DNA of 39,446 nt from positions 1 to 39,446 of the forward strand of contig PEAG01000030.1 of assembly GCA_002753505.1 (NCBI GenBank), written 5' to 3'. The position numbers and the translations under genes were made by a program. This document shows, one piece after another, positions 5,351 to 39,446 of the stretch; within the stretch, counting starts at the first letter, position 1, and every line of letters begins with the position of its first letter. The notes below the pieces were generated by a model, which did no database searches, was not told where the DNA came from, and saw only the letters and a list, made by a program, of their open reading frames with translations. This DNA comes from Magnetococcales bacterium HCHbin5. Its GTDB lineage: Bacteria > Pseudomonadota > Magnetococcia > Magnetococcales > Magnetaquicoccaceae.

Positions 5351-5410
5351 CGGCAAGGCGGGGGGCCGTTGTTGATGATGGGTTTTTTTTGTGGCTGTTT
5401 TTTCTAAACT

Positions 5411-5622
5411 ATTGCAGGGGTCCGGGGAGCGTCACGCTCCCCGGTGGGGTGCAGGGGCAAAGCCTATATGCGCTAACAGGATGACCACGCCCATGCTTTT
5501 TTAATCTTTTAAAACTATTGCAGGGGTCCGGGGAGCGTCACGCTCCCCGGTGGGGTGCAGGGGCAAAGCCTATATGCGCTAACAGGATGACCACGCCCAT
5601 GCTTTTTTAATCTTTTAAAACT
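5411..5622 (+). repeat. Two tandem 106-bp satellite units on the left of a hairpin-chain element
   Basis: Units start at 5411 and 5517 and lead into the full element at 5623, giving an exact 106-bp period. Each contains the CCGGGGAGCGT/ACGCTCCCCGG palindrome and a truncated GCAGGGGC hairpin, followed by a spacer with TATATGCGCTAACAGGATGA and a TTTTAATCTTTTAAAA run. The two units are essentially identical, so the duplication is recent. Confidence 0.9.
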
Positions 5623-6065
5623 ATTGCAGGGGTCCGGGGAGCGTCACGCTCCCCGGTGGGGTGCAGGGGCAAAGCCCCTGCATGCAAGGGCGCGCTTTCC
5701 CGAAAGCCCATTTGCGCAGCAAATGGGCGCAGCGCGCCCAAAACGCCCCGCAGGGGCACTCCTGGAGGGCGGCAGCCCGACTGAGAGCGGGCAGAATCGG
5801 GGATGGCTTGGAGAAAAAACCGATCCTGGCCTTGTATCGAACAAAAAGCGGAAGGCCCGAAAGTTCTGCTTTCTTATCCAAACATTTTCCGTAACATAAC
5901 CGTGCGAGTCGGGCTGCCGCCCTCCCAAGGTCGCCCCTGCGGGGCGGTTTTGGGCGCGTTGCGCACATTTTCTGCGAAAATGTGCTTTGGGAAAACGCGC
6001 CGTTCAGCAGGGGCTCCGCCCCTGCACCCCGCCGGGGAGCGTGACGCTCCCCGGACCCCTGCAAT
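5623..6065 (+). repeat. Complete hairpin-chain intergenic element, copy A
   Basis: The element has 10-bp inverted ends (ATTGCAGGGG / CCCCTGCAAT). The left arm holds, in order, the CCGGGGAGCGT/ACGCTCCCCGG palindrome, GCAGGGGC/GCCCCTGC with loop AAA, GCCCATTTGC/GCAAATGGGC with loop GCA nested in an outer GGGCGCGC-like/GCGCGCCC stem, and GCCCC/GGGGC with loop GCA. A core with GGCCTTGTATCGAACAAAAA and CTTATCCAAACATTTTCC follows. The right arm repeats the hairpins inverted, with different but still paired stems (GCACATTTTC/GAAAATGTGC). It is entirely intergenic. Confidence 0.9.
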
Positions 6066-6249
6066 CGTTTAAAAGAAGATCGCAATCACGTGAGCGCATA
6101 TGGGGCTCCGCCCCTGCACCCCGCCGGGGAGCGTGACGCTCCCCGGACCCCTGCAATCGTTTAAAAGAAGACCGCAATCATGTTGACGCTTATGGGGCTT
6201 TGCCCCTGCATCTCACTGGGGACCGTGACGGTCCCCAGTGAGATGCAAT
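6066..6249 (-). repeat. Two tandem 92-bp satellite units on the right of copy A
   Basis: Units end at 6157 and 6249 with a 92-bp period measured from the element end at 6065. Each carries a GTTTAAAAGAAG-type spacer (altered in the last unit), a GGGGC hairpin remnant and the terminal palindrome. The first has the GGGGAGCGT form and the second the GGGGACCGT form with its partner changed to match. The last unit abuts the 3' end of the amrS-like gene. Confidence 0.85.
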
Positions 6250-11560: not shown

Positions 11561-12006
11561 ATTGCAGGGGTCCGGGGACCGTCACGGTCCCCGGTGGGGT
11601 GCAGGGGCAAAGCCCCTGCATGAGCTGCGCGTTTTCCCAAAGCAAATTTTCACAGAAAATTTGCGCAACGCGCACAAAACCTGCCCCGCAGGGGCAGACT
11701 CTTGGAGGGCGGCAGCCCGACTCGCACGGTTATGTTACGGAAAATGTTTGGATAAGAAACCAGAACTTTCGGGCCTTCCGCTTTTTGTTCGATACAAGGC
11801 CAGGATCGGTTTTTTCTCCAAGCCAAATAACCTTTTGCCCGCTCTCAGTCGGGCTGCCGCCCTCCAGCAGTGCCCCTGCGGGGCGTTTTGGGCGCGCTGC
11901 GCCCATTTGCTGCGCAAATGGGCTTCGGTGAAAGCGCGCCCGTTCATGCAGGGGCTCCGCCCCTGCACCCCGCCGGGGACCGTGACGGTCCCCGGACCCC
12001 TGCAAT
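11561..12006 (-). repeat. Complete hairpin-chain intergenic element, copy B (inverted relative to A)
   Basis: Same terminal ATTGCAGGGG / CCCCTGCAAT ends and core, but in the opposite orientation to copy A: the arm with GCAAATTTTC/GAAAATTTGC comes first and the arm with GCCCATTTGC/GCAAATGGGC second. Both terminal palindromes here have the ACCGT/ACGGT form. The GCCCC/GGGGC stem is lengthened by a T/A pair (TGCCCC/GGGGCA). It fills the gap between miaA and the ferredoxin gene. Confidence 0.9.
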
Positions 12007-13292: not shown

Positions 13293-13402
13293 ATTGCAGG
13301 GGTCCGGGGACTGTCACGCTCCCCGGTGGGGTGCAGAGGCAAAGCCCCATATGCGCGCTAACAGGATGGCCCCACCCATGCTTTTCTTGATCTTTTAAAA
13401 CC
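13293..13402 (+). repeat. 110-bp satellite unit left of element copy C
   Basis: This unit resembles the satellites at 5411-5622, with the spacer ATATGCGCGCTAACAGGATG and a TTTTCTTGATCTTTTAAAA end. Its terminal palindrome is damaged: the left arm reads GGGGACTGT while the right still reads ACGCTCCCC. Among the copies here it is the one with a clearly unpaired change. Confidence 0.8.
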
Positions 13403-13845
13403 ATTGCAGGGGTCCGGGGAGCGTCACGCTCCCCGGTGGGGTGCAGGGGCAAAGCCCCTGCATGTAACGGGCGCGCTTTCACAAAAGCCCATTTGCGCAG
13501 CAAATGGGCGCAGCGCGCCCAAAACGCCCCGCAGGGGCACTGCTGGAGGGCGGCAGCCCGACCGAGAGCGGGCCAAATGGGGCATGGCTTGGAAAAAAAA
13601 TGTTCCTGGCCTTGTATCAAACGAGAAACTGAATATCCGAAGGTTTTGGTTTTTTATCCAAATATTTTCCACGACATAACCGTGCGAGTCGGGCTGCCGC
13701 CCTCCCAAGGTCGCCCCTGCGGGGCGGTTTTGGGCGCGTTGCGCAAATTTTCTGCGAAAATTTGCTTTGGGAAAACGCGCCGTTCAGCAGGGGCTCCGCC
13801 CCTGCACCCCGCTGGGGACCGTGACGGTCCCCAGGCCCCTGCAAT
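13403..13845 (+). repeat. Complete hairpin-chain intergenic element, copy C
   Basis: Orientation is as in copy A. The left arm has the AGCGT/ACGCT palindrome and the GCCCATTTGC/GCAAATGGGC hairpin; the right arm has GCAAATTTTC/GAAAATTTGC and an ACCGT/ACGGT palindrome flanked by CTGGGG/CCCCAG. The two ends of one copy thus carry different but internally paired stems. It lies between mutM and the sigma-54 activator gene, whose 3' ends both face it. Confidence 0.9.
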
Positions 13846-23259: not shown

Positions 23260-24102
23260 TCAACTCTTGACCAAAAGCGACACATCCTTGCTGCCCGCGC
23301 TGTGGGTGATGGCACCCACCGAGATCAAATCCACCCCCGTCTCCGCCACCGCCCGCACATTGTCCAGGTTGACGGTGCCGCTGGCCTCCAGCAGGGCCTT
23401 GCCACCGGCAATGTCCACCGCCCGGCGCATGGTATCCAGATCCATGTTGTCCAGCAAAATGGCCTGGGCTCCGGCATTCAAAGCCTCGCGCACCTGATCC
23501 AGGGTTTCGCACTCGATCTGAATCCGATGCAGATGGCTCACACTCTCTTCCACCCGCTTGATGGCCTCGGTGACACTGCCTGCCAGGGCAATATGGTTTT
23601 CCTTGATCAAAACCCCATCGTCCAACCCCATGCGATGGTTGCGGCCACCGCCGATGCGGACCGCATATTTTTGCAACTGACGCAAACCGGGGGTGGTTTT
23701 GCGGGTGTCCACAATCTGGGCATTGGTGCCGGCAATCTGCTCCACATAACGCCGGGTCAGGGTGGCCACCGCCGAGAGGTTCTGAAAAAAGTTTAACGCC
23801 ACCCGCTCCCCCGTCAATATGCCACGGGCTGGACCGGAAATGGTGCAGATGACATTGCCCGCCCGCACACCTCCCCCGTCCGGCGTCTCCGGCAACATGC
23901 GAATGCGACTGTCCAACAGGGAAAAAACCTCCGCCACCACAGGCAGCCCGCACACCACCAAATCTTCCCGGGCCACCAGCACCGCTTCGGCTTTCTGGCC
24001 AGCCTGCACAATGGAGTTGGTCGTAATATCGCCACGACCAATATCCTGGTATAAGGCACTCTTGATCGTCTCCGACCAGGGGCCAGACCATACAAAGTTC
24101 AT
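23260..24102 (-). CDS. nadC: Nicotinate-nucleotide pyrophosphorylase NadC, 280 aa
   Basis: NadC (quinolinate phosphoribosyltransferase) converts quinolinate and PRPP to nicotinate mononucleotide in NAD synthesis. Family blocks are in order: [12 protein letters not shown], the N-terminal domain with [53 protein letters not shown], the strand [13 protein letters not shown], and ILLDNMD with [11 protein letters not shown] at the C-terminus. The open frame continues far upstream inside valS, but the ATG at 24102 overlaps the valS stop (ATGA) and begins exactly where the family does. The length is standard. nadA and nadB are not nearby. Confidence 0.96.
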
Positions 24103-26912
24103 GATGCCCTCCCGATGGTTTGGATGCGTTGCAAGGCGGCCTGGACGCCTTGGCGTTTTTCCTGCAACTCCAACTCTTTCTGCCGCTCTTTGGCGACTAC
24201 CTCCGCCTTGGCATGGGCCAAAAAGTTGGGGTTGCTCAACTTGCCGCGTACCCGCTCCAGATCGCTCTCCAATCGGCCGATCTCTTTCTGTAAACGGGCC
24301 GCCTCCCCCTCCAGATCGATCACCCCCTGCAACGGAATAAACAGTTGAATCTGTGACAAAACCGCCGTGGCACATCCGGTCGGGGCACTCCCCTCCCAGG
24401 GCTGCCAGGCCTCCAGTCGTGCCAGCGGCAAAATGAGAGCCTGATGCTGTCGAAAATGCTGATCCAGAAAGGCGGCATCCCCGGCGACCAGCAGGGTCAA
24501 CTTTTGCCCGGGGGGGATGCCGGTCTCGCTGCGCATGGTCCGCACCGCACCCACCACCTCCTGCACAAAGGCCAGCTGGGCCTCCACCGACCCATCCAGC
24601 CGATCCTCCTGCAGCTGGGGCCAGCGGGCCAACATCAGGGAGCCCGGAGGATCGCCGCAACCTGCCAGCGGGGCCACCTTTTGCCACAGCTCCTCGGTGA
24701 TAAAGGGCATCAGGGGATGCAACAGACGCAACGCAGTCTCCAGCACCTGCAACATGGTCTGGCGGGCAGCAAGCTGCCCCCCCTCATCCCCCTCCTGACC
24801 ATAGAGGAGCGGCTTGATCCACTCCAGATACCAGTCGCAAAAATCGCCCCACAAAAAATGGTAGAGGGTGGTGGCCGCTTCATCAAATCGATACTTGGCA
24901 AAGGCCCCATCGACACCGGCAATCGTTCGCTGCAACCGGGAGAGAATCCAGCGATCCGCGATACCATAGGGCAGTGCCGTCATCCCCTGACCGCAGTTTC
25001 GCCCCTCCGTGTTCATCAACACAAACCGTGCCGCATTCCACAACTTGTTGCAAAAATTGCGGTATCCCTCCATGCGACCCAGATCAAACTTGATGTCCCG
25101 CCCCTGGGTGGCCAGACTGGCCATGGTAAAGCGCAACGCATCGGTACCAAAGGCGGGGATGCCGTTGGGAAACTCTTTGCGGGTCGCGGCCTCAATGCGC
25201 TGGGCCAACTGGGGCTGCATCAAATCCCGGGTCCGCTTCTGAACCAGCTCTTCCAACTCGATACCATCGATCAAATCCAGCGGATCCAGCACATTGCCCT
25301 TGGACTTGCTCATCTTGTTGCCCTCACCATCCCGCACCAGGCCGGTGATGTAGACGGTTCGGAAGGGCACCTGACCGGTAAATTTTATACCCATCATGAT
25401 CATCCGGGCAACCCAGAAAAAAATGATGTCAAAACCGGTTACCAGCACATCGGTCGGATAAAAGGCCGCCAACTCATCGGTCTGTTGTGGCCAACCCAGG
25501 GTGGAAAAGGGCCACAGGGCCGAGGAAAACCAGGTATCCAGCACGTCGGAATCCTGATGGAGGGGGGTCGCCTGACCATAGTGCAGTCGGGCCTGCTGAT
25601 GGGCCTGCGCCTCGTCGTGGGCGACAAAAATATGGCCGTCGGGTCCATACCAGGCCGGAATGCGGTGACCCCACCAGATCTGCCGGGAGATGCACCAGTC
25701 CTGAATATGGTACATCCATTCAAAGTAGGTCTTTTTCCAGGCATCGGGCACAAAGGTGATCTGACCCTCCTCCACCGCCTGGATGGCCGCCGCCGCCAGC
25801 GGGGCCGTATGCACAAACCATTGATCGGTCAAATAGGGCTCCACCACCGCCTTGGAACGGTCCCCGCGGGGAATCATCAGCCGGTGCGGCACCACCTTGG
25901 CCACCAAACCCTGGGACTCCAGGTCGGCCAACACCTGTTTGCGGGCCACAAAACGGTCCAGGCCCCGATATGGAGGGGGCACGTTGTCGTTCAGGGTGGC
26001 ATGGGGGGTGAAAATATTGATTTGCGGCAGCTGATGACGCCTGCCCATCTCATGGTCGTTAAAATCGTGGGCTGGGGTGATCTTGACACAGCCCGAACCA
26101 AACTCCGGCTTGACCGTCTCATCGGCGATCACCGGAATGTGACGCCCCGCCAGCGGCAATATGACCGATCGACCAATCAGATGCTGATAGCGTTCATCCT
26201 CCGGATGCACCGCCACCGCCACATCCCCCAACAGGGTTTCCGGGCGGGTGGTGGCGACAACGAGGGGCTCTCCCCCATCGACCAGGGGATAACGCAAATA
26301 CCAGAGGGAACCCTCTTCCTCCTCCGCCACCACCTCCAGATCGGAAACCGCCGTATGCAACACCGGATCCCAGTTCACCAGGCGGCTGCCCCGATAGATC
26401 AACCCCTCCTGGTAGAGACGGACAAAGACCTCCGTCACCGCCCGGGAGAGTTGGGCATCCATGGTGAAGGCCTCCCGGTTCCAGTCGCAGGAGGCCCCCA
26501 GCCGGCGCAATTGATGGACAATCGTACCCCCGGAGTGGGCCTTCCAGCTCCAGACCCGCTCCAAAAAGGGGTCGCGGCCCAGATCCTGGCGTGTTTTGCC
26601 CTCGTTGGCCAACTGGCGTTCCACCACCATCTGGGTGGCAATACCCGCATGGTCGGTGCCCGTTTGCCACAGGGTATGCTCTCCGCGCATGCGCCGCTGC
26701 CGAATCAGGGCATCCATCAGGGTGTCTTGAAAGGCGTGTCCCATGTGCAGGGTGCCGGTCACATTGGGGGGAGGGATCATGATGCAGTACGAGGGGCGCG
26801 CCAACTTTTCCCCGGCGGCAAAATACCCTTCGCTCTCCCAATGGGCATACCAACGACGCTCCACACCCACCGGATCATAGCTTTTGGGCAGGGAAGGTTC
26901 GGCAAAATTCAT
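24099..26912 (-). CDS. valS: Valine--tRNA ligase ValS, 937 aa
   Basis: This is a class I aminoacyl-tRNA synthetase charging tRNA-Val. The HIGH motif appears as [16 protein letters not shown] near residue 50 and KMSKS as [14 protein letters not shown] near residue 540. The large editing domain (about 200-400) holds [17 protein letters not shown] and the threonine-rich pocket. The C-terminal anticodon-binding domain and the long coiled-coil arm typical of ValS ([19 protein letters not shown]) complete the protein. Length is typical (E. coli about 951). The start follows the PopZ-like gene by 43 nt. Overlap with nadC suggests coupling. Confidence 0.97.
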
Positions 26913-26955: not shown

Positions 26956-28437
26956 TCACTCCTCTGACTCCTCTGCGTCCTCTCCGGGTTGTCCCAGATT
27001 TTTAATACGTTCCAGCTCGGCACGAATGGCCTCTTCCAACAGTCCGGGTAAAATTTCCCGCAGGATCTGCTGGGCCATGTCGCCAATAATCCGGTCCACC
27101 CGTGCCCCATAGGCCTCTCGCAACAGGGCGGCCGTCACCGGCTGCGCCAAAGGTATCGGCTTGGCAACCGGTGGCACAGTGGACTCCTCTGGCATTTTTT
27201 CCGCCACAACTGGCTGCTCCGGCGCAGCCACGGCGGGTTCTTGCTCGCCTGCTGTGGTCACGACAATGGGCAGAGGCTCCCCCTCTGGAGCCGTGGCCGC
27301 CGGGGTTGTCGCCGGTGGTTCGGTTTCAACCATGATGGTTGTCGCCGGTGGTTCGGTCTCGACCGTGGCAGTTGTCGCCGGTGGTTCGGTTTCGACCGTG
27401 GCGGTTGTCACGGGTGGTTCAGTCTCGACCGTAGCGGTCGTGGCCGGTGGCTCGGTTTCGACCGTAGCGGTTGTCGCCGGTGGTTCGGTTTCGACCATGA
27501 TGGTTGTCGCCGGTGGTTCAGTCTCGACCGTGGTGGTTGTCACGGGTGGTTCGGTTTCGACCGTGGCAGTTGTGGCCGGTGGTTCAGTCTCGACCGTGGT
27601 GGTTGTCACGGGTGGTTCGGTTTCGACCGTGGCAGTTGTGGCCGGTGGTTCAGTCTCGACCGTAGCGGTCGTGGCCGGTGGTTCAGTCTCGACCGTGGCG
27701 GTTGTGGCCGGTGGTTCAGTCTCGACCGTGACGGTTGTGGCCGGTGGTTCAGTCTCAACTGTGACGGTTGTAGCGGGTGGTTCGGTTTCGATCGTAGCGG
27801 TTGTCGCTGGGGGCTCAGTCTCGACCGTAGCGGTTGTCGCTGGTGGTTCGGTTTCGACCGTAGCGGTTGTCGCCGGTGGTTCAGTCTCAACCGTGATGGT
27901 TGTGGCGGGTGGTTCGGTTTCAACCACGGCGGTTGTGGCGGGTGGTTCGCTTTCAAATGCGCTCCCCGCCGTCTCTACCCCCTCTGGTTCGGATATCTCT
28001 TCATCCTCCTGCGTGAAGCGTGCCGTTGGGACCGATTCATCGCTGGCTCTTTCAAAGCCGCGCAGGTCTATATAGGGCTCTTCCTCTGAAAAATCGGCAT
28101 CCCCGTAGGCGGGTTGTTCCAGCGATTGCAGCAGCTCATGCTCCAGGCTGGCATCATCCTCAAACCCTTTCAGATGGGTCAATTCAAACTTTCGGGCTGT
28201 CTGAGGCTGCACCACGGCTGCAGAGGAGGCGGGAGGGGCTCCGAGCAACGCTTCACTCCCCTCATCCAACAACCCCTCCAGAGAGGCCAGAATCTCCTCC
28301 ATGGAGGGGCCCTCTCCCATCAGATCACCAAATTCGCTGCTGCCTCCGTTATCTGCCCCGGCAAACTCATCTGCATGAGGATCGGAAAGATCGGATTCCT
28401 GTGACCATTTACGATCTTTTACTCTTTTATTGGCCAT
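26956..28437 (-). CDS. PopZ-like (DUF2497) polar organising protein with expanded repeat linker, 493 aa
   Basis: The ends match PopZ-family proteins of alphaproteobacteria, which self-assemble at cell poles and recruit partners such as ParB. The binding helix is seen at residues 43-59 (GPSMEEILASLEGLLDE), although it is preceded by about 40 extra residues, and the C-terminal oligomerisation helices at about 430-485 (AQQILREILPGLLEEAIRAE). Between them is an acidic region and then 20 tandem 11-residue units of the type VETEPPATTAT (about residues 163-382), far longer than the proline-rich acidic linker of Caulobacter PopZ. One glutamate pair per unit makes the linker strongly negative. Location directly before valS matches the alphaproteobacterial arrangement I know for popZ. 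Function at the pole is inferred; the repeats probably vary in number between strains. Confidence 0.8.
   Translation of the reverse strand: MANKRVKDRKWSQESDLSDPHADEFAGADNGGSSEFGDLMGEGPSMEEILASLEGLLDEGSEALLGAPPASSAAVVQPQTARKFELTHLKGFEDDASLEHELLQSLEQPAYGDADFSEEEPYIDLRGFERASDESVPTARFTQEDEEISEPEGVETAGSAFESEPPATTAVVETEPPATTITVETEPPATTATVETEPPATTATVETEPPATTATIETEPPATTVTVETEPPATTVTVETEPPATTATVETEPPATTATVETEPPATTATVETEPPVTTTTVETEPPATTATVETEPPVTTTTVETEPPATTIMVETEPPATTATVETEPPATTATVETEPPVTTATVETEPPATTATVETEPPATTIMVETEPPATTPAATAPEGEPLPIVVTTAGEQEPAVAAPEQPVVAEKMPEESTVPPVAKPIPLAQPVTAALLREAYGARVDRIIGDMAQQILREILPGLLEEAIRAELERIKNLGQPGEDAEESEE
27292..27951 (-). repeat. In-frame 33-bp tandem repeat array, 20 units
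   Basis: Twenty units encode the 11-residue linker motif of the PopZ-like protein. Positions 1-6 and 8-9 of each unit (V-E-T-E-P-P and T-T) are nearly invariant, while residue 7 (A or V) and residues 10-11 (AT, IT, VT, TT, IM) vary in a patchy order that repeats higher-order blocks. Third-position changes are also scattered, so the array grew by repeated slippage or unequal crossing-over over time. It is fully coding and not a CRISPR array. Confidence 0.92.
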
Positions 28438-28475: not shown

Positions 28476-29699
28476 CTACCATCCCAAATACATGCGGATG
28501 GTATCCAGCATGACACGGATAAATCCACCGGCGGCAACAGCGGCTCCCGCCACGACCGGGCGGGAGAGAATCTCCTTGCCCCCCAGCTTGACCACCACGC
28601 GACCAACCGTCGCCCCGGCCGCCAATGGTGCAACCAGCGGTTCGTCATAGACCAGACCAACCTCCAGGCCATTGCGCTCCTTGCGCGGCACCGTCACGAA
28701 CAGTGCCTCATTGACAATGCCGTCCACATGGTCTGTCTGCCCCTTCCAGATGCGCAGATTGCGCACCACCGCTTTGGCCTCGAACAGACGAACGGTCTCA
28801 AACATGCGGTTGCCATAGCGCAGCAGGCGCAACGCCTCCTCTTCCCGGACCCGGCTGCTTTTGGCACCCATGATCACCGCCGCCAACCGCTGCCCATCCT
28901 TGTCGCTGGTGGCGATCAGGCAGTAGCCGGCATCTTTGGTATGTCCCGTCTTCAAACCGGTGATGGAGGGGTCGCGCCACAGCAGACGATTGCGGTTGTA
29001 CTGGCGAATACCATTGAAAGAGTATTGTTTTTCCTGGGAAAAATGGGCATATTGCGGGAAATCCCGTTTGATCGCCTGTGCCAGCAAAAACATGTCTCTG
29101 GCAGAGGTCATATGATCTGGTGTCGGCATCCCGGAGGCGTTGTCAAAGTGGGTCTGGGTCATGCCCAACTTTTTGGCCTTGCGGTTCATCAGGTCGGCAA
29201 ATCCCTCCTCGGAGCCTGCCAGATGTTCTGCCACCACCACACAGGCGTCGTTGCCGCTCTGGACCGCAATGCCCAGGACCAGATCTTCCACCCGGACCTG
29301 GTCCCCCACCTGCACAAAGGTTTTGGAGCCACTCATGCGCCAGGCCTTTTCGCTGACCGGCAGCTTCTGCTCCAGTTTCAGATCCCCGGCTGCCAACGCC
29401 TCGTAGACCAGGTAGAGGGTCATCACCTTGGTGAGGGAGGCCGGGTGCATCGGCGTCTGATCCTCCTGGGCAAATAAAATTGCCCCGGAATCGATGTCTC
29501 CCAGGATGGCAGAGGGGGCGTTGATCTCAAAGGGGCCTTTGTCCGTATCCCCCTTGGCCGACGCATCGACACTCTTGGCCGCTGTTTCTGTTGCCTTGGC
29601 CGTTTTTTTTGCTTTTTCCTGATCCACCGCCTCTGCCAGACCCAGTGTGGCAAGCAGGCAAACCGGTATCATCCATCCAATAAGTATTTTTCTGAACAC
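28476..29699 (-). CDS. dacC: D-alanyl-D-alanine carboxypeptidase (PBP5/DacC type), 407 aa
   Basis: This penicillin-binding protein removes the terminal D-alanine from peptidoglycan stem peptides. The three active-site motifs are SLTK (S88, K91), SGN (148-150) and KTG (250-252), in the expected spacing, followed by the PBP5 C-terminal beta domain and a terminal amphipathic or membrane-associated helix (GGFIRVMLDTIRMYLGW). The signal peptide is FRKILIGWMIPVCLLATLG with cleavage near AEA. After it comes a lysine/alanine/threonine-rich linker not usual in PBP5. An ATG at 29747 is in frame, but the GTG at 29699 has AGGTTGGG upstream and places the signal peptide at the terminus. It ends 38 bp before the PopZ-like gene. 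Confidence 0.92.
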   Translation of the reverse strand: MFRKILIGWMIPVCLLATLGLAEAVDQEKAKKTAKATETAAKSVDASAKGDTDKGPFEINAPSAILGDIDSGAILFAQEDQTPMHPASLTKVMTLYLVYEALAAGDLKLEQKLPVSEKAWRMSGSKTFVQVGDQVRVEDLVLGIAVQSGNDACVVVAEHLAGSEEGFADLMNRKAKKLGMTQTHFDNASGMPTPDHMTSARDMFLLAQAIKRDFPQYAHFSQEKQYSFNGIRQYNRNRLLWRDPSITGLKTGHTKDAGYCLIATSDKDGQRLAAVIMGAKSSRVREEEALRLLRYGNRMFETVRLFEAKAVVRNLRIWKGQTDHVDGIVNEALFVTVPRKERNGLEVGLVYDEPLVAPLAAGATVGRVVVKLGGKEILSRPVVAGAAVAAGGFIRVMLDTIRMYLGW

Positions 29700-29833
29700 G
29701 ATATCCCAACCTGAATTCGGTTCCCCGTTTACTCGACGCCACGGCATCGAAGATTTGGTTTATAATCGCCGACAGGCGCACACACGCCTGGGGCACACAC
29801 GCAATGATCAAACCGTTGTCTCAAGGCCCTGGA

Positions 29834-30898
29834 TCACTCCCCTTTTCGAAAGGCCTCTGCCAGTTCCCGCACCACCATGGCAAAACGGCTGGAGCGGTTC
29901 CACTGGGTAATCACCTTGAAATTCCCGAATACCACATAATAGCGGGAACCCTGTTGCTCTTCCAGTCTGATTAATGCAGCGGGTTCATTTGGATCGGGTT
30001 TTTTATCTTGTGGAGAGAGGCTGACTCCCCGTTCCTGCCACGTCTGCCAGGGCTGCATCTCGTTGAGGGAGGGGGAAACCAGGCTGCTTAAATCCATATT
30101 TTTCTTTTTTTTCAGTTGAACCGCCAGTATACCATCCGGATCCCAGTGGTGGCCTGCCAGAAAGGAGGCGATAGAGGCGAGGACATCTGCGGGATTATTG
30201 AAAATGTCCCGTTTGCCATCGCCGCTGAAATCGACCGCATATTGTCGCAGGGTACTGGGCATCATCTGCATTTGGCCGATGGCACCGGCGAAGGAGCCTT
30301 TGATCTGGCGGGGATCCCAGCCCTCTTCCTGACACAGTTGGAGAAAGTGGCGCAGTTCGTCCCGGAAAAAGTTGGCGCGACGGGGATACTCCGTGGCCAG
30401 GGTATAGAGGGAGCGCAATATGGAAAATCCGCCTGCACTGCGGCCAAAATCGCTCTCCACCCCCCAGAGGGCGACCACCACCTCCGCCGGGACATGGTAT
30501 TGCTCTTGAATCTGTTGCAGCAGGGTCCGGTGGGTACGCATCAACTGGTGGCCCCGCTGGATGCGCCGTTGGTTGATAAAATTTTTCCGATACAGATAAT
30601 AGGGCTTGGCCTCTGCCTGATTGTCCATCAGGCGTACCACCCGCGGGTCCGGTGTCAGCGGTGCCAACAGGGTGTTGAGCCAACCCTCTTCAAAGGTGCC
30701 CTGGGCCACCCACTCCGCCAACCAGGGCTGGCTGACTGTTGGGTCGGTGCTGTTGGCGGCGAGTGCGTAAGGGCTGCAAAAAATGGCCAACAGGAGACCC
30801 ACCCCACTGCCCAGGAGCAGATGGCGAAGTGGGAGCGTTCTTTTTCTGACTTGCTTCACGCGACGACTGAGTCCATTTTGAAGCGTGTTGTCAATCAT
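29834..30898 (-). CDS. mltB: Lytic murein transglycosylase B (MltB-like), 354 aa
   Basis: The enzyme cleaves the glycan strand of peptidoglycan with formation of 1,6-anhydromuramic acid. The catalytic glutamate is in ALWGVESDFGRSAGGF (E148), followed by the family blocks LATEYPRRANFFRDEL, GSFAGAIGQMQMMPST, YAVDFSGDGKRDIFNNPADVLASIA and the late YYVVFGNFKVITQWNRS, where the NYPxxxxWNRS-like end is typical of MltB. The N-terminus has a basic region and a hydrophobic helix (about 27-48, HLLLGSGVGLLLAIFCSPYALA); a cysteine at 41 is followed by SPY, so a lipoprotein signal is not convincing. It lies 134 bp upstream of dacC and shares its direction. The ATP-binding exporter gene is divergent. Confidence 0.92.
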   Translation of the reverse strand: MIDNTLQNGLSRRVKQVRKRTLPLRHLLLGSGVGLLLAIFCSPYALAANSTDPTVSQPWLAEWVAQGTFEEGWLNTLLAPLTPDPRVVRLMDNQAEAKPYYLYRKNFINQRRIQRGHQLMRTHRTLLQQIQEQYHVPAEVVVALWGVESDFGRSAGGFSILRSLYTLATEYPRRANFFRDELRHFLQLCQEEGWDPRQIKGSFAGAIGQMQMMPSTLRQYAVDFSGDGKRDIFNNPADVLASIASFLAGHHWDPDGILAVQLKKKKNMDLSSLVSPSLNEMQPWQTWQERGVSLSPQDKKPDPNEPAALIRLEEQQGSRYYVVFGNFKVITQWNRSSRFAMVVRELAEAFRKGE

Positions 30899-34700: not shown

Positions 34701-34792
34701 GGCGGTTGTGCCACTGCGTTGTCATGGATTGCAGAGATCTGGGGACCGTCACGGTTCCCGGTTACCCATGCTTTTCTTAATCTTTTAAAACA

Positions 34793-35237
34793 ATTGCAGG
34801 GGTCCGGGGAGCGTCACGCTCCCCGGTGGGGTGCAGGGGCAAAGCCCCTGCATGTACGGGCGCGCTTTCCCAAAAGCCCATTTGCGCAGCAAATGGGCGC
34901 AGCGCGCCCAAAACGCCCCGCAGGGGCACTCCTGGAGGGCGGCAGCCCGACCGAGAGCGGGCCAAATTGGGCATGGCTTGGAAAAAAAAACCGTTCCTGG
35001 CCTTGTATCAGAAAAAAAACTGAATCTCCGAACCTTCTGCTCTCTTATCCAAACATTTTCCATAACATAACCGTGCGAGTCGGGCTGCCGCCCTCCCAAG
35101 GTCGCCCCTGCGGGGCGGCTTTGGGCGCGTTGCGCCCATTTTCTGCGAAAATGGGCTTTGGGAAAACGCGCCATTCATGCAGGGGCTTCGCCCCTGCACC
35201 CCACCGGGGAGCGTGACGCTCCCCGGACCCCTGCAAT
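34793..35237 (+). repeat. Complete hairpin-chain intergenic element, copy D
   Basis: Orientation as in copies A and C. Left arm: AGCGT/ACGCT palindrome and GCCCATTTGC/GCAAATGGGC; right arm: GCCCATTTTC/GAAAATGGGC, a GCAGGGGC hairpin with a TTC-type loop, and again AGCGT/ACGCT. A short decayed terminal palindrome (GGGGACCGT/ACGGTTCCC) lies upstream at 34741-34759. Confidence 0.9.
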
Positions 35238-35372: not shown

Positions 35373-37019
35373 CTAAATCCTGGACCGGTTTTTCTCCTTC
35401 TCATAAGACGTGGCATGATAATGAGCCATTTTATCGGTACGCTGCTCGATAAAAGTTTGCAAATCCCCTGACCGCAATGCTGCCAGCATTTTTGCATCGA
35501 TAAAGTGCATCTGCAACTCAATATCGGGCAAATTTTCTGTTCCCAGCAGACGATTCCGAAGTGCTGCTTTTGTATTGGGATCAATCAAAAAGCTGTTTCC
35601 CGCACTTTGCATCTGCTGCTTCAGGGCAGGTGCAGCTCCGGGAGGCGCAGAAAAAAGCCGTACCAATGCCGCTCGTCCATACATCTCAAGCACTTTCAGA
35701 GTGTTGGTCTGGTCGTCATTTGCATCAAACAATACTTTTCTTGTGGCCCACAGAAGAACAAAGAGGCAAGCCCTCGGCGAACGGAAGTCAAAACGTTTGG
35801 GGAGCCCCCGTCCAGGAGTCCACTCCCTGTCATCAAACGATTTCAGTGCTTCGTGTTCGGACCTGATCTGCCAGTAGGAGGCGGTTGAAAAAACTTCCGA
35901 CCAGCTGGTACGCCAAAACCATCGAATAAACTTGACCTTGTCGTCGGCAGAGACCTGTTCGCCACGTTGTGCCAACTCGACCGCCAGGAGTACCAACTGA
36001 AAGGGATAATAGGGCAACAGTTCCCGACGGACCACCCCCGCCTGTTCGGCAAGCAGGGCTATGGCCTGTTGAATGCCTGCACCAGCCCGATCCAACAGAG
36101 CCGGATGTTCCTTGAGTGCTGCCACCAGTTCTGTTTGTCCCGCTCTGGTTATGTCCAACTTGACGAGACCTTTGCAGACCTTCAAGAACAGGGACTCCTC
36201 AATATCGCGCCATCCAAGGGGTAACGCTTCCCTCAAGGTGTCTATTCGCTCCCGCAGGTCAAACTGTTCGTTCCAAGTCAAGGCGGCTACCAAATGGGCC
36301 TCACTCATGACGGTACCAAGAGTGTTGATGCGTTGGAAAGTTGCTGCGGCCAGTTCCAATCGATCAGTCACCATGACCACAATCGGAATTCGGAACTGCT
36401 GAAAGCTGTAGGCAAGTTGATCCGCCCTTTTTTCCCACTCTTCGATGTTCTCTTCCGTCCAGGGACCGATTTCCCCTGCCCAGAGTGTTCTGAGCTCACG
36501 CAGACGTTTGTTTACAAGCCGACCATCCAACAGAGTCCATAAAGGCAGCAAAGGTCGATTGGCACGCCTGGCTACGCCCCTGTCTGGAAAGATAAATTCC
36601 TCTTCTTCGAGGTCGTATTGAACATCCCAGTCAATGCTGTCGTCATCATCCGGTTGATCTTCCCGGGGCGGTTGCGAGGGGTTTAGAAGCAGGCCAAGCA
36701 GGGAGGAGATTCGTTGGTGGCCATCCAGAATATATTGCCAACCTGTGGTTGGGGGCGTCTCCGCAATGGGGGGAATGGTGTGTGGACCAACAGTGGGAAA
36801 GGAGGCCAGACTGAATTTGCTTGTTCGCCAGATCAAAAGGCTGCCAACCGGCATATTGTCACGGATGGAACGCAGCAATTCCAGTCGTTGCTCATCGGTC
36901 CAAACAAAAGGACGTTGAAAGCGTGGCACACGGATATGGCCACGCTGGACATCCTCCAGCAGACTTTTCAAACCTGGGTTCAAGTTTTCGGAAGCGAGGG
37001 CGGTCAGCGTTTCAGACAT
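35373..37019 (-). CDS. DUF262 (GmrS/ParB-like nuclease fold) protein, 548 aa
   Basis: This is a DUF262 protein; members such as the GmrSD type IV restriction enzyme use this ParB-like fold to hydrolyse nucleotides and control a nuclease. The family motifs are present: VPRFQRPFVW (31-40), ILDGHQRISSL with D99, Q102 and R103 (the usual DGQQR with His for the first Gln), and FQRINTLG (228-235; F-x-R-x-N-x-x-G). The last 300 residues are helical and I see no HNH (DUF1524) motif, so a separate effector nuclease would be needed. A GAGGTC ribosome-binding site precedes the ATG. It is the last gene of a three-gene operon, 13 nt after the TOPRIM-like gene. Role in anti-phage defence is inferred from family and company. 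Confidence 0.85.
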   Translation of the reverse strand: MSETLTALASENLNPGLKSLLEDVQRGHIRVPRFQRPFVWTDEQRLELLRSIRDNMPVGSLLIWRTSKFSLASFPTVGPHTIPPIAETPPTTGWQYILDGHQRISSLLGLLLNPSQPPREDQPDDDDSIDWDVQYDLEEEEFIFPDRGVARRANRPLLPLWTLLDGRLVNKRLRELRTLWAGEIGPWTEENIEEWEKRADQLAYSFQQFRIPIVVMVTDRLELAAATFQRINTLGTVMSEAHLVAALTWNEQFDLRERIDTLREALPLGWRDIEESLFLKVCKGLVKLDITRAGQTELVAALKEHPALLDRAGAGIQQAIALLAEQAGVVRRELLPYYPFQLVLLAVELAQRGEQVSADDKVKFIRWFWRTSWSEVFSTASYWQIRSEHEALKSFDDREWTPGRGLPKRFDFRSPRACLFVLLWATRKVLFDANDDQTNTLKVLEMYGRAALVRLFSAPPGAAPALKQQMQSAGNSFLIDPNTKAALRNRLLGTENLPDIELQMHFIDAKMLAALRSGDLQTFIEQRTDKMAHYHATSYEKEKNRSRI

Positions 37020-37032
37020 GATGACCTCAACA

Positions 37033-38028
37033 CTACAGCAGCCGCATCAATTGGGGCAAATTTTGCTCGGCCTCTTGGCGTGCCTCGCTGTCCCAATCAA
37101 ATTCATTTTGGGCTGTCGACTGATAATGATTTGCCAGAGAGTTGGAAAAGCCTTTGGATAGTGCCGCACGATCTGCCGGTTCAACCGCATCATACAGATC
37201 CCGGCACCGATGCCCGTTTTCGCCGGGGGCGTCGCCATTAAACCCTTTTTTCATGTTAAAATACCACCTGCCGGCCTGACTGAGACGAAAAAACGCCTCC
37301 ACTGCACCGGGTGGCACGTTGTTTGTCATCCGGGAAATATACTCTCTTGGCATGTAAGACTCGATAAACCGACGTTTCAGCATCCAATACCTTCCTGCCA
37401 TCATGTTCTGTGCCACGCGCTCTATCTCACGTCCCTCGCACGACTCTTTGCCGCTGGGGTCCCAATCGGGTTTCAGTTCATCGGGGTGGCGTCGGTCACT
37501 GTCAAACAGTGCGAAGGTTCGGAGTGCCTTGTGCGTTGCAGACAAACGGTTGGTTAATTGCTGTTTTAATGTACTGCCACCCCCGTGCAGGGGCGTGGCC
37601 CAACCCCTTTTGGCGGCATCTTGCAGCCGTTCACGTTCTGATGGACGCATGATGCCGAGCAGAAAATGCCAATCATTCTGGTTGTTCTCCAGAAATATGC
37701 CAAGCGGTTCCTCAAGAAGTTGCAACGCCTCCCCCAACGGCAACACGGCTATGGGATCCTGCCATACAGGCGTTGTGATGGCTGTGACCCGGACAGTTGC
37801 ACAGTTGGCGGGTAGTCTGGTTGCCGTTCGTGTGGCATTGGCAATGCAACGGCGATAAATGTCAGCCACCTTTTGGCTGAAGGTGGCTTGGAGGTAGTTC
37901 TCCAATGCCTCTGGTGGGTCAAAGACAAGCGTGTGGCGTTCGTGTCCGAACGAGAGTAGTCTGTTGATCTGGAGGATCTCATCCTCTGTTGGTCTGGAAA
38001 GCAGTATGCTATCGACAATCACCCGCAT
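37033..38028 (-). CDS. TOPRIM-like (OLD/DUF4435-type) putative nuclease, 331 aa
   Basis: I assign this by motif, not by overall recognition. The signature of a TOPRIM domain is readable: PLGIFLENNQNDWHFLLGI with the first acidic residue E114 and D119, a glycine-rich turn HGGGST (148-153), and TFALFDSDRR with D176 and D178 as the DxD metal site. Farther on, WMLKRRFIESYMP (residues about 215-227) matches the 'LKRREIENYL' element seen after TOPRIM domains that work with ATPases (OLD and PARIS AriB types). The start overlaps the ATPase stop by 10 nt, so both are likely made in a fixed ratio. The expected role is the nicking or RNA-cleaving effector switched on by the ATPase. The N-terminal 90 residues are unassigned. 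Confidence 0.6.
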   Translation of the reverse strand: MRVIVDSILLSRPTEDEILQINRLLSFGHERHTLVFDPPEALENYLQATFSQKVADIYRRCIANATRTATRLPANCATVRVTAITTPVWQDPIAVLPLGEALQLLEEPLGIFLENNQNDWHFLLGIMRPSERERLQDAAKRGWATPLHGGGSTLKQQLTNRLSATHKALRTFALFDSDRRHPDELKPDWDPSGKESCEGREIERVAQNMMAGRYWMLKRRFIESYMPREYISRMTNNVPPGAVEAFFRLSQAGRWYFNMKKGFNGDAPGENGHRCRDLYDAVEPADRAALSKGFSNSLANHYQSTAQNEFDWDSEARQEAEQNLPQLMRLL

Positions 38029-39215
38029 GATGGTTCTTCTTTGAGCTGTATGGCCATCAGTTTACGGCCAAGTTGCACCGCTTCATCAAAGGCCCCCATG
38101 AGAGCGGTTGCGGTTGGTTGCCCATGGGAATCAAAGTCAATGGGAGTCGCGTCACTGGTTCCATCCGGACGGGATTCCACCCAGTATACCCGTACCATCC
38201 CGGGTGCGATTTTTCCCTCTGCAATGGCGAGTTGCACACTCATCAGCAAAATTTCGGAGTGTGTTTCGAGCAGAATGGTGGGTTTTGATGCTGCCGTGGC
38301 GGATGCTACCAACAGGTCGGCCAGTACGGTTTGGGCACGGGTATGCAGATGCAGCTCCGGTTGTTCCAGACAGAGCAGGCGCGGACCACCGAGACGCGCA
38401 GCGGCCAGGGCGACCAGGACCGGCAAGACTTGTGCGTAGCCTTCCCCCGTGTCGCACAGGTTGACGGCAACTTGCAAGCTTTGCCGTGGGCTCAACAAAA
38501 CACGCCAGCCACCGGTGATGGGATTATCCAGGCTGAGATGTTCGCCCAGGGCTTGGAAAAAACGTCGAGTCTCCTCCAACAAAGGATTTTCCGTACTCCG
38601 AAGCTGTGCCTGGATGAGATGTTCCACCGCATCATGACCATCCGAAGAGAGTACGGGGCGTGCCGTGCCACTGGACAAAACAATGCGGGATGGGCGTGCA
38701 CGTACGCCACTGATCCATTGAACCTGGCTGGCGATTTGGTTCAGACCGTTTTTCAGTGTCTGGAACGGTTGCTGTGTGTTGCTGTCTGTCGCAATGGAGG
38801 GAATGAGGCCATGCCATTCTTCCTCTTCTTTCTCCGTGGAAATAAACGTCGTTGAGACTGTTCCGGCACGTATTTCCAGTGACTGTATGGCTTGCCAGCC
38901 TCCACCCAGTTCGCCCCGTATTTTCCACTCTGCCTTGAGAGGTGTCTGCTGCCAGTGCAGTGCGAAGCGCAGCAGGTCACGTTTGGTTGATTTACAGACC
39001 AACTCAGCCCAGGTGGCCTGCCGCCCCACCTCACCCGCCAGACAGATGGGTGGGGTGATGCCTCGGATGGATTCTGATAACAGGGGTAAAAAACGCACGA
39101 GGGCACTCTTGCCACCACTGTTCCAGCCAAAAAAAAGGGTGAGTGGGCGCAAATCAATATCCTGCCGCCGAGCAAAGGCCCGATAGTTTTCCACTGAAAA
39201 CGAGGTTAACTGCAT
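38019..39215 (-). CDS. AAA ATPase (AAA_15/AAA_21 type) with DUF3696-like C-terminus, 398 aa
   Basis: This is an ABC/SMC-like ATPase without a coiled coil. Walker A is GWNSGGKS (30-37); a degenerate signature region NLCDTGEGYAQVLPVLVAL (252-270) resembles the VGxGxSQxLP block of this group; Walker B is LLCLEQPELHLH with E284; the switch region is LLETHSEILL with H319. The tail VRVYWVESRPDGTSDATPI is like DUF3696. Such ATPases typically sense phage or damaged DNA and control a partner nuclease. I chose the ATG at 39215, in line with the family start MQLTSFSVENYRAF and with a GGGA upstream; an ATG at 39227 adds four residues. It is the first gene of the operon; a repeat element starts about 66 bp upstream of it, so its promoter must be in this short gap or in the repeat. 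Confidence 0.85.
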   Translation of the reverse strand: MQLTSFSVENYRAFARRQDIDLRPLTLFFGWNSGGKSALVRFLPLLSESIRGITPPICLAGEVGRQATWAELVCKSTKRDLLRFALHWQQTPLKAEWKIRGELGGGWQAIQSLEIRAGTVSTTFISTEKEEEEWHGLIPSIATDSNTQQPFQTLKNGLNQIASQVQWISGVRARPSRIVLSSGTARPVLSSDGHDAVEHLIQAQLRSTENPLLEETRRFFQALGEHLSLDNPITGGWRVLLSPRQSLQVAVNLCDTGEGYAQVLPVLVALAAARLGGPRLLCLEQPELHLHTRAQTVLADLLVASATAASKPTILLETHSEILLMSVQLAIAEGKIAPGMVRVYWVESRPDGTSDATPIDFDSHGQPTATALMGAFDEAVQLGRKLMAIQLKEEPSCG

Positions 39216-39292
39216 AGGATTTCCCATTCAACTGGACCGTTTGCGCTAGGTTTGGCCGTGATTTCCCACGTTTTTTCTAATCTTTTCAAACT

Positions 39293-39446
39293 ATTGCAGG
39301 GGCCTGGGGACCGTCACGGTCCCCAGTGGGGTGCAGGGGCAAAGCCCCTGCATGTACGGGCGCGCTTTCCCAAAAGCCCATTTGCGCAGCAAATGGGCGC
39401 AGCGCGCCCAAAACGCCCCGCAGGGGCACTGCTGGAGGGCGGCAGC
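39293..39446 (+). repeat. Left arm of a hairpin-chain element, cut by the window end
   Basis: It starts with ATTGCAGGGG and contains CTGGGGACCGT/ACGGTCCCCAG, GCAGGGGC/GCCCCTGC, GCCCATTTGC/GCAAATGGGC and GCCCC/GGGGC before the window ends. It lies just upstream of the ATPase gene, so the putative defence operon has a copy of this family at each end. Confidence 0.88.

Follow-up and report, generated by a model that had tools for sequence, protein, structure and literature searches.

The popZ-like gene and its neighbours

The window, meaning the whole 39,446-nt stretch of DNA analysed, carries on its minus strand an ORF of 493 aa which, judged from profile comparisons and its relatives, is an unannotated popZ ortholog missed by the family models (Table 1). 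Its C-terminus has homologs throughout the Magnetococcales, and the search of relatives found most of them to be syntenic: the order MltB gene-dacA-popZ-valS occurs in most Magnetococcales contigs long enough to show it, and dacA-popZ-valS is also kept in a Magnetococcales genome assembled as a single contig of 4,719,581 bp. One contig (G019, L043) has dacA and popZ without a valS match. The downstream valS is the one shared neighbour of popZ reported in Caulobacter and Agrobacterium (PMC5686542), and it lies within 1.5 kb at 22 of the 30 alphaproteobacterial PF10691 loci that were fetched.

Table 1. Features of the popZ-like gene and its neighbours; positions are those of the window, residues those of the 493-aa product.
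Feature	Position	Strand	Basis
popZ-like CDS, 493 aa	26956..28437	-	third-position bias, pN/pS 0.18 in frame; syntenic orthologs across the order
N-terminal extension, residues 1-43, with basic tip MANKRVKDRK at the start	28309..28437	-	first 15 residues net +3
H1 client-binding helix motif PSMEEILASLEGLLDEG, residues 44-60	28258..28308	-	H1 profile match and hhalign
Acidic segment without repeats, residues 61-160	27958..28257	-	net charge -0.18 per residue
Candidate degenerate middle motif EEPYIDLRGFE (LDL[ST]GME in orthologs)	28051..28086	-	weak: profile test not significant here
20 tandem units of 33 bp / 11 aa, consensus VETEPPATTAT, residues 161-380	27298..27957	-	TRF score 788-868; unit list; pN/pS 0.18
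Recent two-unit duplication	27509..27663	-	89-bp stretch repeated exactly 66 bp away
Proline-rich spacer 3' of the array, residues 381-435	27133..27297	-	translation
Putative DUF2497-like C-terminal oligomerisation region, residues 436-479	27001..27132	-	AlphaFold2 helix; hhalign; orthologs match PF10691
Short acidic C-terminal tail, residues 480-493	26959..27000	-	translation
valS, 43 bp downstream of the popZ-like ORF	24099..26912	-	Pfam; conserved popZ neighbour
dacA-type D-Ala-D-Ala carboxypeptidase, 38 bp upstream	28476..29747	-	Pfam Peptidase_S11; conserved upstream neighbour
MltB-type lytic transglycosylase, in the same conserved gene order	29834..30898	-	Pfam SLT_2

Two other elements were seen elsewhere in the window. 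A dispersed palindrome, GGGGAGCGTSACGCTCCCC, is present in 18 copies when up to 3 mismatches are allowed (chance expectation 0.02), at 154-172, 265-283, 2104-2122, 5406-5676, 6010-6236, 11574-11993, 13306-13832, 34741-35224 and 39306-39324, and some of these copies sit inside tandem arrays of 92-106 bp. On the minus strand at 35373-39227, a three-gene cassette encoding an AAA ATPase, a protein of unknown type and a GmrSD-type protein matches the PADLOC candidate defence system PDC-M55 A, B and C.

The two ends of the protein

A C-terminal resemblance to DUF2497 had been proposed in the preliminary description, with a PF10691 search as its check. The protein's own scans do not bear this out: hmmscan against Pfam, with hits admitted up to E 5, returned no DUF2497, the protein has no NCBIfam match, and a PF10691 scan of its own genome, read up to E 10, gave nothing at the locus. 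Direct matching of the window C-terminus to a model built from 22 alphaproteobacterial C-termini reached only E 0.15. The resemblance is nevertheless upheld, and the negative scan overruled, by the syntenic orthologs G042, G039 and G044, which exceed the curated PF10691 cut-off (E 1.7e-7, 7e-7 and 3e-6), and by profile-profile alignment, in which the Magnetococcales and alphaproteobacterial PopZ C-termini are matched by hhalign at 97.0% (E 1.3e-10). AlphaFold2, run with eight aligned sequences, predicts residues 436-479 to be one long helix (pLDDT above 95) rather than an H3-H4 hairpin. The PDB yielded no relative of the PopZ C-terminus, the best hit (E 0.037) being to unrelated molecules. This helix is not specific to PopZ, as it also occurs in short DUF2497 proteins and in a CheX protein of Magnetococcales; the C-terminus alone is therefore insufficient for PopZ identity.

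The short Magnetococcales DUF2497 proteins (L019, L021 and L029) share the C-terminal helix with the window protein, but they are only about 110-145 aa long and carry two copies of it, with neither H1 nor linker. L019 is above the PF10691 cut-off, and similar two-helix proteins are found at G042:C29, G033:C10, G037:C111 and G011:C138. Such proteins possibly co-assemble with PopZ or inhibit it. In the CheX chemotaxis phosphatase, the PopZ/DUF2497-like C-terminal helix is a weak match (L025, 907-1671 of the reverse-complemented locus, and L047:7203-7973), and it suggests that chemotaxis control is recruited to the polar body.

At the other end, the N-terminal H1 helix P[ST]MEEILASI is present in the window ORF, where the client helix reads PSMEEILASLEGLLD (residues 44-60). 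When the alphaproteobacterial PopZ H1 profile was run against the window's own genome, this ORF was the only significant match (28282-28308, E 0.0037), the next-best being at E 1.4, and hhalign matches the Magnetococcales and alphaproteobacterial PopZ N-termini at 96.8% (E 2.5e-10). The PopZ-like identity put forward in the preliminary description is supported by both ends in profile-profile comparison, by the PF10691 matches of syntenic orthologs, by the popZ-valS order and by the H1 match. The extension that it had placed before the binding helix is also there, as 43 aa followed by PSMEEILASLEGLLDEG. In 15 of the 16 Magnetococcales orthologs having such an extension, its tip is net basic (+2 to +8).

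The H1 region of the window protein, PSMEEILASLEGLLDE, differs from the RR form. After ILAS[I], at the position of Caulobacter R18-R19, the window protein has E-G and most Magnetococcales orthologs have E plus D, E, S or G, so that in the order the face of the client helix that was basic is now acidic or neutral. R19 of Caulobacter PopZ takes part in client binding, and the client-dead PopZ-KEP mutant carries R19E among its three changes (PMC5182065). Client binding may therefore differ in the window protein, and the clients or their binding face have presumably co-evolved with the altered helix. Candidate partners are encoded in the same genome: there is a strong match to chromosomal-type ParB, as well as a ZitP-type protein in which a DUF3426-like end comes after a transmembrane stretch. 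In Caulobacter, ZitP counts among the direct partners of PopZ (PMC5182065). The zinc-ribbon end is seen in a relative (L143) and is not within the L144 stretch of the window's genome. The L144 protein has a long acidic linker of its own, with EEEPWPAAAEEESA repeats.

A linker made of in-frame tandem repeats

Between the two ends, TRF detects a 33-bp period of 19.6 copies at 27304-27954, overlaid by a higher-order period of 165 bp. Listed in frame, the array comprises exactly 20 units of 11 residues (220 aa), as had been described from the translation, and 10 of them read VETEPPATTAT. When all units are compared, third codon positions account for 747 of the 1105 differences; the pN/pS of 0.18 is a descriptive value, because the pairs are not independent. 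Because of this bias and this ratio, the minus-strand frame is taken as coding and the unit as conserved at the protein level; the window units are under protein-level constraint. A coding role for the long plus-strand ORFs across the array was rejected, these being a mechanical outcome of the 33-bp period. Neighbouring units are on average ~83% identical, so the array has not recently been homogenised, while the 89-bp exact match at a 66-bp lag marks a recent duplication of two units. The whole linker (381 aa between the ends) has 16% proline and a net charge of about -0.17 to -0.18 per residue. It had been called acidic and proline-rich: the proline content agrees, but the acidity is only moderate, the lowest among the 18 Magnetococcales linkers measured. 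From its composition, the linker is probably disordered.

In the 18 Magnetococcales proteins, the linker from H1 to the C-terminal helix spans 243-972 aa (median 509), and its net charge, from -0.17 to -0.55 per residue, is negative in all 18. Linkers of 22 alphaproteobacterial PopZ proteins span 111-222 aa (median 182), an interval that includes any H2 helix and ends at a C-terminal landmark differing slightly from the one used for Magnetococcales. Magnetococcales are not alone in having long linkers, since one further alphaproteobacterial PopZ, L074, has one of ~505 aa as estimated from translation. Every ortholog tested with TRF contains tandem repeats, the top units of which are all multiples of 3 bp, and in-frame repeats make up 20-76% of the full-length genes, G019 (2%) being the one exception. 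The units themselves are unrelated: VETEPPATTAT, EP, VEPEPEVEAEP, EEVAEEEA, EEESELA, SLEEE and EEDSEEEEAIGEE. In five species of one genus, the C-termini are 58-87% identical and the linker after the middle motif varies from 163 to 689 aa; together with the recent two-unit duplication, these differences between congeners support the earlier suggestion of an expandable array. Among the linker values, no inverse relation between length and charge is evident. As the sequences read, the Magnetococcales spacer is rebuilt repeatedly from unrelated repeats, nearly all linkers being in-frame tandem repeats that keep only their net negative charge. Since the spacer is built in this way, gain or loss of whole units can alter both its length and its charge.

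The repeats also leave their mark on assemblies. In 15 of 35, a contig ends between 100 and 1500 bp upstream of valS, within popZ, where contig density predicts 3.0; on the downstream side there are 2. A repeat-built popZ explains why Magnetococcales assemblies often break at this gene. Long arrays are generally not an assembly artefact, because the single-contig genome encodes a PopZ linker of 631 aa.

A middle motif, LDL[ST]GME or a close variant, stands between H1 and the repeats in 12 of the 19 proteins compared, and middle-motif-like stretches are themselves repeated in G032 and G023. It resembles the DVL[DE]L[TA] of alphaproteobacterial PopZ linkers. A profile of the alphaproteobacterial D[VI]L[DE]L[TA], scored against shuffled linkers, gave p of 0.02 or less in 5 of the 19 proteins and 0.80 in the window protein, where its conservation is no more than a lead. 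A middle motif shared with alphaproteobacterial PopZ is thus suggestive for the order only, not for the window.

Proposed function of the protein and comparison with known PopZ systems

PopZ forms a droplet-like body at the poles of bacterial cells and is a leading model for condensates in bacteria. Condensation of the Caulobacter protein is driven by its C-terminal helices, and the linker keeps the condensate fluid. A longer linker makes it more fluid and less charge makes it less so, both extremes costing fitness (PMC9512792). The dependence of PopZ fluidity on the length and charge of the linker, a premise of the preliminary description, is thus published for Caulobacter. By homology, the window protein should build a polar body of this kind. 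The product would most likely self-assemble at the cell pole through its C-terminal helix, and its N-terminal helix would most likely recruit clients such as ParB. The long, extended, negatively charged and proline-rich disordered spacer may then keep the condensate fluid. In Magnetococcales, this spacer would be maintained by the birth, expansion and replacement of in-frame repeats, and not by conserved sequence. We regard this reading, a popZ ortholog with polar self-assembly, client recruitment and a fluid-keeping spacer maintained by repeat turnover, as very probable.

Doubling the PopZ linker lowered fitness in Caulobacter (PMC9512792), so the lengths found in Magnetococcales need another compensating feature. 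The linker might be an evolvable tandem-repeat dial that lineages exchange time and again for new in-frame repeats. Array length and charge, selected in bulk, would then determine the material state of the polar body at lengths well beyond the narrow range known from Caulobacterales, with the altered client helix and the basic N-terminal tip as counterweights; this we propose only tentatively. In the window species, length and charge could offset each other's effects; across the order no such trade-off is evident.

The strongest alternative shares the PopZ identity and differs only on the selection of the array. If disorder and negative charge are all that a linker needs, slippage and unequal crossing-over would enlarge it without functional gain, leaving unit and length to drift. 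The unrelated units and disparate lengths within one genus favour such neutrality, as do the absence of an evident length-charge relation and the ZitP-like protein of the same genome, whose long acidic linker has repeats of its own. Against it stand the constraint on the window units (pN/pS 0.18), the negative charge kept in 18 of 18 linkers and the sensitivity of Caulobacter fitness to linker length and charge (PMC9512792). Neutral repeats are a serious possibility to which we grant somewhat less than an even chance. It is also conceivable, though unlikely, that a PopZ-derived scaffold now serves some other polar or magnetosome function and binds other clients. This idea arises because the basic face of H1 was lost and new N-terminal parts were added: R18-R19 is replaced across most of the order, most families gained the basic-tipped extension, and LDL[ST]GME is conserved. 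The core PSMEEILASL and the gene order are unchanged, however, and ParB and ZitP-type proteins are still in the genome. Finally, a protein unrelated to PopZ, with acidic repeats and a generic amphipathic helix at its C-terminus, placed beside valS by chance, would account for the missing direct DUF2497 match and for a helix that other proteins have too, but it is largely refuted by the H1 match, the N-terminal hhalign result, the PF10691 matches of the orthologs and the popZ-valS order, and is highly improbable.

With the popZ ortholog and its fluid-keeping spacer as the preferred reading, a PopZ can be placed in Magnetococcales, in a magnetotactic bacterium; text searches of the open-licence literature found no description of PopZ in this order or of a tandem-repeat PopZ linker. 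Linker length and charge are said to sit in a narrow fitness zone. Linkers of 3 to ~12 times the 78 aa of Caulobacter, made of interchangeable repeats, offer a natural experiment on that claim, and they bear on how a disordered region keeps its physics but not its sequence.

Among known systems, the PopZ of Magnetospirillum gryphiswaldense (PMC6414705) belongs to another lineage, the alphaproteobacterial magnetospirilla, and Magnetococcus is not mentioned in the text of that paper. Agrobacterium tumefaciens PopZ (333 aa; PMC5686542) shares with the window protein a long proline/acid-rich linker (241 aa) and the downstream valS, but no tandem array has been described in it. Alphaproteobacterial H1 helices in general keep RRII where the window protein has EGLL. 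With Caulobacter crescentus PopZ (177 aa; PMC9512792), the window protein has in common the PxMEEILAS client helix, an acidic proline-rich and probably disordered linker, a helical C-terminal region that may oligomerise, and valS downstream. The Caulobacter protein has a 78-aa linker without repeats, no N-terminal extension, the basic RR in H1 and a DUF2497 match, whereas the window protein has a linker ~5 times as long, with 381 aa between its ends including the 20 tandem units, and a lower charge density.
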